From Citromicrobium bathyomarinum (lineage in GTDB: Bacteria > Pseudomonadota > Alphaproteobacteria > Sphingomonadales > Sphingomonadaceae), in assembly GCF_021021475.1 (NCBI RefSeq), contig NZ_JAINWL010000002.1, forward strand, positions 496,001-560,000: 64,000 bases of DNA, in the 5' to 3' direction. The notes beneath the pieces are model-generated. The model had not been told where the DNA came from. It saw nothing but the letters and a program-made list of their open reading frames with translations, and ran no database searches. Each line of letters begins with the position of its first letter. The first letter of the stretch is position 1. This document shows, piece after piece, positions 7,866-9,461 of this stretch. Both the position numbers and the translations under genes were made by a program.

Positions 7866-9450
7866 GTGCAGCTGTCTGTCTGGACCTACGAGGGACCTCC
7901 TCATGTCGGCGCGATGCGGGTCGCGACGGCGATGCGCGGGGTCCACTATCTGCTCCACGCGCCGCAGGGCGATACCTACGCCGACCTGCTGTTCACGATG
8001 ATCGAGCGGCGCAATGCGCGCCCGCCGGTCACCTACACCACCTTCCAGGCGCGCGATCTGGGCAAGGATACCGCCGACCTGTTCCAGCGTGCCGCGCGCG
8101 ATGCCTACGCGCGGTTCGACCCGCAGGTGATGCTGGTCGGATCCTCGTGCACCGCCGAGCTGATCCAGGACGATCCCGCCGGTATGGCCGAGGCGATGCG
8201 CCTGCCGTGCCCGGTCGTCCCGCTCGAACTGCCGAGCTATTCGCGCAAGGAAAACTGGGGCGCGGGCGAGACCTTCTACCAGATCGTGCGTCATATCGCG
8301 GACCGCGATGTGCGCCCCGCCTCGCGTGATGGCCGTAAGCCGCTGGTCAACATCCTCGGCCCCGCAGCTCTGGGCTTCCGTCATCGCGACGATGTGCGCG
8401 AAGTGCGTGGTATCCTCAACCGGCTCGGCATCGATGTGAACTGCGTAGCGCCGCTGGGCGCTTCGCCCGCCGACATCGCCCGGATCGGCGCGGCGGACTT
8501 CAACATCGTGCTCTATCCCGAAATCGGCGACAGCGCCGCCCGCTGGCTGGAGCGCGAATTCAAGCAGCCGCGCACCAAGACCATTCCCATCGGCGTCGGT
8601 GCAACGCGCGAGTTCATCGCAGAGGTCGCGGCGCTGGCTGGCGTCGATCCCGAGCCTGCGCTTGCGGATGGCGAGTCGCGCATGCCGTGGTGGAGCCGTT
8701 CGGTCGACTCGACGTATCTCACGGGCAAGCGCGTGTTCGTGTTCGGCGATGCAACCCATGCGGTCGCCGCCGCGCGGGTCGCGAAGGAAGAACTGGGCTT
8801 CGAGGTGGTCGGGCTCGGCTGCTACAACCGCGAATTCGCCCGCGAAGTGCGCGATGCGGCCAAGCTGTATGGCGTCGAGCCGCTGATCACCGACGATCAT
8901 CTGGAGGTCGAGGACGCGATCGCCGCCGCTGCGCCGGAGCTGGTGCTGGGCACGCAGATGGAACGCCACATCGCCAAGCGGCAGGGCGTCCCCTGCGCGG
9001 TGATCTCGGCCCCCGTCCACGTGCAGGATTTCCCCGCGCGCCACAGTCCGCAAATGGGTTTCGAAGGCGCGAACGTGCTGTTCGACACCTGGGTGCATCC
9101 GCTGGTCATGGGGCTGGAAGAGCACCTGCTGACCATGTTCCGCGAGGATTTCGAATTCTCCGACGCCGCGGGGGCCTCGCACCTGTCTGCCCATTCGCCT
9201 TCTCGTCATGCTGAACTTGTTTCAGCATCCAGTGCGCCAATGGCACCGGCCATCCAGGAGGAAGACTGGACCCCGGAACAAGTCCGGGGTGACGATGAAG
9301 ATACGCTCTGGACCGCAGAGGCCGAGGCCGAGCTGAAGAAAATCCCATTCTTCGTGCGCGGCAAGGCGAAGCGGAACACGGAGAGCTTCGCCGCCGAGCA
9401 GGGCCGCGCCGCGATCGACCTTGAGACGCTGTACGATGCGAAGGCGCATT

Positions 9451-9461
<11 letters not shown>
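7866..9461 (+). CDS. bchB: Light-independent protochlorophyllide reductase subunit BchB, with in-frame palindromic element
   Basis: The 531-residue B subunit pairs with BchN to form the catalytic heterotetramer of dark protochlorophyllide reductase. It starts at GTG ([15 protein letters not shown]), two bases after bchN; the conserved [16 protein letters not shown] segment fixes the start. The nitrogenase-like domain runs to about residue 440, and the C-terminal PCP_red domain (from about residue 483, ending [13 protein letters not shown]) is intact. Between them, about residues 447-477 are encoded by a double-hairpin repeat (9204-9294), giving a low-complexity linker ([10 protein letters not shown]...). 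The reading frame stays open, so the protein is probably functional with a longer linker. The last 11 bases overlap bchH. Confidence 0.95.
9204..9294. repeat. 91-base double-hairpin (REP-like) element inside bchB
   Basis: Two 28-base units face each other across 35 bases. The left unit (9204-9231) folds as ATGCTGAA/CTTGT/TTCAGCAT and the right unit (9267-9294) as ACCCCGGA/ACAAG/TCCGGGGT, each a perfect 8-base stem with a 5-base loop. The loops are reverse complements of each other. Aligned in one orientation the units share CGTCA at one end, ACTTGTT in the middle and TCCA at the other, and differ at eight positions, all stem positions that change in compensating pairs. Such elements are common between genes of sphingomonads (from memory of the group); here it lies within a coding region and is translated. 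Confidence 0.85.

Follow-up and report, generated by a model that had tools for sequence, protein, structure and literature searches.

A double hairpin in the bchB linker

The window, by which we mean the whole 64-kb stretch of DNA that was analysed, carries bchB, whose product scored 618.7 bits against TIGR01278 (cut-off 490). An earlier note on this DNA had described a 91-base element of two facing 28-base units inside this gene, and we confirmed its presence and architecture (Table 1). Both units have an unpaired CGTC tag at one end and a CCA tail, and both form a perfect 8-bp stem closed by a 5-nt loop (arms 9208-9215/9221-9228 in unit 1 and 9270-9277/9283-9290 in unit 2). The loops of the two units, CTTGT and ACAAG, are complementary, as had been claimed. 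The pattern GTCA-N6-ACTTGTT-N6-TCCA matched the 64-kb window exactly twice, with 0.00 matches expected from 100 dinucleotide shuffles, and a separate scan of the window for CGTC-tagged perfect hairpins returned these two units only. The RNA fold of the element stretch, computed with regard to the effect on mRNA between bchB and bchH that the earlier note had suggested, had a z of -4.1.

Table 1. Positions of bchB and of the parts of its insert in the window.
Feature	Position	Strand	Description
bchB (protochlorophyllide reductase subunit B)	7866..9461	+	GTG start, 531 aa, stop included; TIGR01278 over cut-off
CGTC-tagged REP head-to-head heterodimer	9204..9294	+	91 bp; encodes BchB residues 447-476
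Unit 1, TGCTGA type	9204..9231	+	CGTC + 8-bp stem + CTTGT loop + CCA
Spacer between units, 35 nt	9232..9266	+	fast evolving, pS 0.525 among 6 congeners
Unit 2, CCCCGG type, inverted	9267..9294	-	28 nt
PCP_red domain coding part (residues 482-526)	9309..9443	+	Pfam; directly after insert

The element lies in the linker between the nitrogenase-like and PCP_red domains of BchB and leaves the frame open. This placement, also proposed in the earlier note, agrees with the Pfam bounds, with Oxidored_nitro at residues 12-413, PCP_red at 482-526 and the element-coded residues in between, and with the 531-aa ORF. We infer that the insert peptide is made as part of BchB, where it most likely acts only as a spacer. 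In an AlphaFold2 model of BchB (38 sequences, mean pLDDT 71.3), residues 443-477 had pLDDT below 50 and formed neither helix nor strand. This is weakly in keeping with a flexible, disordered linker, since the model is moderate and residues 382-433 also fell below 50.

The class to which the insert belongs, intragenic CGTC-2 heterodimers, is already described in alphaproteobacteria. According to the main text of a survey of these repeats (Di Nocera, De Gregorio and Rocco 2013, PMC3733652), CGTC-2 REPs resemble the bchB insert in their CGTC tag, 8-bp stem, 5-nt loop, CCA tail, head-to-head heterodimers and alphaproteobacterial hosts, and some of their copies are intragenic, with truB and tRNA synthetase genes of E. 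litoralis and S. alaskensis named. The same text gives A/T pairs at the first and second stem positions of CGTC-2 units as almost invariable; unit 1 has A/T pairs at both positions, and unit 2 has A-T at the first and C-G at the second. The insert had originally been likened to Rickettsia palindromic elements, which are also read in frame inside conserved genes (in-frame fusions are described in a 2024 review, PMC10969869). The likeness holds as far as the superfamily tag, since the main text of PMC3733652 places RPE-4 and RPE-6 in the CGTC-tagged superfamily. However, the Rickettsia elements are about 150 bp long (PMC10969869) rather than 91 bp, host and sequence differ, and CGTC-2 REP heterodimer is the better name for the bchB insert.

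We found bchB in seven of ten genomes of the genus, and all seven carry the insert at the identical place. In one of them (G007) both hairpins have decayed and a 21-nt filler has been gained, with the frame still open; in another (G006) both hairpins have changed with pairing kept, and three extra codons lie beside the insert. The BchB linker is 50 aa long in the window's genome and 50-57 aa in the seven congeners. Outside the genus, the linkers parsable at 78 of 80 loci (all except L074 and L096) were 26-71 aa long (mean 44.6), varied freely in sequence and length and were often Ala/Pro-rich. None of the hairpins listed for these 78 linkers was of the CGTC unit type seen in the bchB insert, so the expectation that relatives lack the insert held among them, but not for the bchB-bearing congeners. 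As the total linker length is ordinary, the repeat fills most of a normal-sized linker; the element does encode the roughly 30 residues that had been reported as added, but there is no net gain. Comparison of the congeners shows that the insertion is old, having entered in the ancestor of the genus and been inherited since as an open coding stretch.

Among six congeners, with the decayed G007 copy left out of the counts, synonymous divergence was lowest in the unit codons (0.163), intermediate outside the insert (0.314) and highest in the spacer (0.525); values as low as that of the units were seen in 3.7% of random window pairs. Pairing in unit 1 was 8/8 in all six, and in unit 2 it was full in three and imperfect in three (6/8, 7/8 and 7/8). 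The low synonymous change and the kept pairing are a weak sign that the hairpin DNA as such has been conserved or homogenised, and selection or conversion may act on this DNA more than on the peptide. One alternative is that the hairpins are kept for a selected function, in which the peptide or RNA structure improves DPOR or bchB-bchH expression. Retention of the insert in every bchB-bearing congener, the low synonymous change in the units and the strong RNA fold would all fit such a function. However, p for the low divergence is only about 0.04, the G007 gene stays open after losing its hairpins, linkers outside the genus differ freely, and other repeats fill the BchB linker in other lineages, as described below. 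We therefore regard a selected function as unlikely.

Dispersed copies and shared insertion sites

At no more than one mismatch, the window's genome contains 20 units and the other nine congeners contain 4-22, while the reversed pattern gave 0 in all ten. These counts confirm a dispersed, mobile-type double hairpin. They also refute an origin by chance, in which low-complexity linker evolution merely came to resemble a repeat: BchB linkers are indeed variable and often Ala/Pro-rich, but an exact two-unit architecture with 0.00 expected, built from a unit that is dispersed in the same genome, leaves this explanation with practically no probability.

About ten copies in the window's genome are dimers, mostly with a unit spacing of 62-65 nt. 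Across the genus, 69 unit loci yielded 61 unit pairs, of which 60 were heterodimers; the spacing was 62-65 nt in 49 pairs, 374 nt in six and other in six. Flank similarity sorted the 69 loci into 19 sites, and since 15 of these sites, covering 65 of the 69 loci, are common to at least two congeners, most copies are old. The earlier note had predicted that the unit would occur in many intergenic spots; it does recur in the genome, but the copies, about 20 units, are few and lie also within truB and cysS. The dimer seen in bchB also occurs, with frame and orientation unchanged, in truB of G004, G005, G008 and, with the second unit deleted, the window's genome (G000), and in cysS of three of the ten genomes (G001, G005 and G008), and NCBIfam confirmed both host proteins. 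The repeat is thus read in frame within the open frames of unrelated conserved genes, namely bchB, truB and cysS. Separately, one member of the family (G074) holds 262 units at no more than one mismatch, an expansion far beyond the window's genus.

The earlier note had predicted a gap in relatives that matches a clean insertion; the sites compared gave no clean insertion with a target duplication, and several of them carry other inserted sequence. One truB site, translated in nine congeners (G009 was left out), carries four different inserts (loci L281-L290), and for each non-CGTC insert there, two or more further matches were found elsewhere in the loci compared. Other CGTC-tagged families, starting at the same junction, occupy one intergenic site in congeners (L315-L320 vs L004). 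In other lineages, the BchB linker of Erythrobacter sp. AP23 matched 8 other places in its own genome at E below 1e-4, and those of Sphingomonas hylomeconis and Sandarakinorhabdus sp. AAP62 each matched more than 15 in theirs at the same threshold. These three linkers were chosen by eye, and the copy search was positive in all three; L094, also suspected, was left out. A self-complementarity scan for inverted-dimer linkers gave 4 of 85 at p <= 0.01, three of them outside the genus, and missed both the window's own linker (p 0.17) and L069 (p 0.19). The scan is therefore insensitive, and the claim for other lineages depends on those three hand-picked linkers. The presence of different dispersed repeats at the same site, in BchB linkers of three other lineages and in truB within the genus, shows tolerant linkers to be recurrent landing sites. 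An enzyme linker filled by different repeat families in different lineages offers a natural series, outside Rickettsia, for studying how selfish DNA turns into protein.

Altogether, the observation made in the earlier note was confirmed and its interpretation partly supported, and two points go beyond it: the different repeat families at fixed protein linkers, and the association with a nuclease gene described next.

A GIY-YIG nuclease gene between inverted units

The main text of the 2013 survey reports no dedicated enzyme for CGTC-tagged REPs (PMC3733652). We rejected a RAYT as mobiliser, as a search of the window's genome for Y1_Tnp (PF01797) gave 0 matches, with 5 of 14 control genomes positive. 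The same genome contains a 126-aa GIY-YIG ORF between two inverted units, which are the same units as in the bchB insert (contig C6 146,790-147,190; L016:1518-1898). In its longest reading, both the start and the stop of this ORF lie inside the bounding units. PF01541 covers residues 22-96 of 126 (E 1.2e-14), making the product a small stand-alone domain, and residues Y25, G33, Y36, G38, R51, E71, E83 and N102 are invariant in 24 GIY-YIG sequences. NCBIfam gave no match to the protein and PADLOC weak ones (best E 0.0017). The gene has a DsrE-family gene on one side and ruvB on the other. Six of the ten congeners have this bounded arrangement, with a spacing of 374 nt.

A homologue at E <= 1e-8 was found in 98 of 149 family genomes. 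Among the 30 best loci from these 149 genomes, which represent 26 genera, the gene was bounded by units on both sides in 26 and on one side in 4, compared with 0 of 800 random windows. A second pass with the gene relocated also counted 26 loci bounded on both sides, whereas the remaining four now comprised 3 with units on one side and 1 with none. Of 40 more distant loci, hand-picked from the homologue list partly to include genomes without units, 31 had units on both sides and 38 had them on one side or more; the corresponding control counts in this looser search were 2 and 93 of 800 windows. The control windows were drawn at random within the 80 bchB loci, and thus not from the same genomes as the nuclease loci. 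Among 15 named records (of 33, from a plasmid collection), the gene was bounded on both sides in 10: Azospirillum lipoferum, Neorhizobium, Sinorhizobium meliloti, Rhizobium sp. CIAT894, two Shinella, Novosphingobium aromaticivorans, Sphingobium, Aeromonas caviae and gonococcus. In the records of Photobacterium, R. tumorigenes, Planktothrix, Spirosoma and Sinorhizobium C101 it lacked units on at least one side. The gene of Azospirillum lipoferum 4B, bounded by CGTC units, sits between sufB and sufC (L364:701-982). The nuclease gene is thus associated with the same inverted units at its ends.

The arrangement recalls REPIN-RAYT systems, in which inverted REP doublets likewise accompany an enzyme gene flanked by units (for the RAYT side, PMC3733652). 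Those systems have a GTAG tag and a RAYT tyrosine transposase, whereas here the tag is CGTC, the genome has no Y1_Tnp match and the candidate partner is a GIY-YIG nuclease. The GIY-YIG nuclease may be the missing enzyme of the CGTC-tagged repeats, and the bounded gene offers a direct candidate for a widespread repeat class whose 2013 description left it apparently without an enzyme. This candidate spans one sphingomonad family, other alphaproteobacteria, one gonococcal and one Aeromonas record, and a single small protein is enough to test it. Neither GIY-YIG nor bchB occurs in the main text of PMC3733652.

The bounding unit types vary between loci and include CTTGT, CTTGA and 4-nt-loop dRS3-like forms. 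Left and right types agreed in 67 of 69 cases (shuffled mean 29.5, maximum 40). To build the nuclease tree, 100 loci were reduced to 88 distinct sequences of sufficient length, of which 78 were labelled and counted after exclusion of 8 without units and 2 mixed. On this tree, of whose 85 inner branches 42 are unresolved, there are 8 changes of unit type, compared with a minimum of 24 in 500 shuffles. These results bear on the idea that an unrelated enzyme, a RAYT elsewhere or one lost since, moves the units, and that the nuclease gene was caught between two of them long ago. PF01797, undetected in the window's genome now, could indeed have been lost, and most copies are old, with 65 of 69 loci in shared sites. 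However, the arrangement recurs in 26 genera with different unit families, and also in the Azospirillum, Sinorhizobium, Shinella and Novosphingobium records, and a single capture would not in itself account for the match between unit type and nuclease tree. We consider such a passive capture quite improbable.

Unit number also follows the nuclease. The 31 genomes with a close homologue (E <= 1e-39) have a median of 20 units, and all 31 have at least one; the medians are 4.5 and 1 in two weaker homologue classes and 0 in the 51 genomes without a homologue at E <= 1e-8, 33 of which have zero units. The Spearman coefficient between unit number and the nuclease is 0.62 across the 149 genomes, uncorrected for relatedness. 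Six genomes without a detected homologue carry 8-59 units. Flanks of the nuclease gene are shared in 14 of the 30 family loci, so the gene mostly stays in one place and behaves like a resident gene, and its inheritance is largely vertical.

Proposed mechanism and its alternative

We favour, as the probable explanation, that the bchB insert is an ancestral non-autonomous CGTC-2 REP heterodimer in a tolerant linker, and that its partner is the small GIY-YIG nuclease, which cuts unit hairpins whose repair spreads the dimers. In detail, the nuclease would recognise the unit as a DNA hairpin and cut it; when the cut is mended from another copy, dimers would spread to other sites or be exchanged between them. 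This process would resemble homing and not strand transfer. It counts against mobilisation that GIY-YIG enzymes, being hydrolytic, have no known strand-transfer step. Within genes, insertions would persist only if they left the frame open and the protein could accommodate a flexible peptide, as would be the case in BchB, TruB and CysS. Mobilisation of the units by the nuclease is what we infer here; no transposition event was seen in the comparisons.

More tentatively, we propose a wider version to which we give clearly less than even weight. Here CGTC REPs would be kept and spread by clade-matched GIY-YIG nucleases, via homing-like cut-and-copy at DNA hairpins, as a second REP system that is independent of RAYT. 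BchB and TruB linkers and intergenic sites would then swap repeat families and so rewrite enzyme peptides. Copying into sites that already hold hairpins would lead a few tolerant linkers and intergenic sites to change occupants.

Alternatively, the nuclease could, without spreading the units, treat them as marks that show where to cut, for instance so that uptake of single-stranded DNA is limited or shaped, with the units being useful and amplified in some other way. GIY-YIG nucleases of the Ssn family, according to a 2025 report, are said to cut single-stranded DNA at a repeated sequence and to modulate transformation in Neisseria; like our candidate, they are small stand-alone GIY-YIG proteins tied to a repeated hairpin. 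In our comparisons, a gonococcal GIY-YIG gene was 57% identical over 81% of the query and bounded by dRS3-like units, and the largely vertical, single-locus inheritance of the nuclease gene would also suit a role of this kind. However, the nuclease gene with a unit at either end is laid out like an element, its ends recur in a shorter, dispersed dimer, and the same site holds different repeats in different congeners. On balance we find this use as cutting sites possible but rather doubtful.

The reported Ssn work concerned single-stranded cutting and transformation, and may already cover part of the link between nuclease and repeat; what we add are the in-gene repeat dimers and the different repeats at one site. 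We found no paper joining GIY-YIG with dRS3 or with 'repetitive extragenic palindromic' in a search of largely open-access literature, and we do not claim that the link is unpublished.

A minor feature of the units is a filler of 21-22 nt that appears inside a unit after position 18 or 19. We saw two strict cases (L292/L199, which is cysS of G001, and L008/L200) in addition to the decayed bchB of G007 (L031). Possibly such fillers are repair scars at a cutting site.
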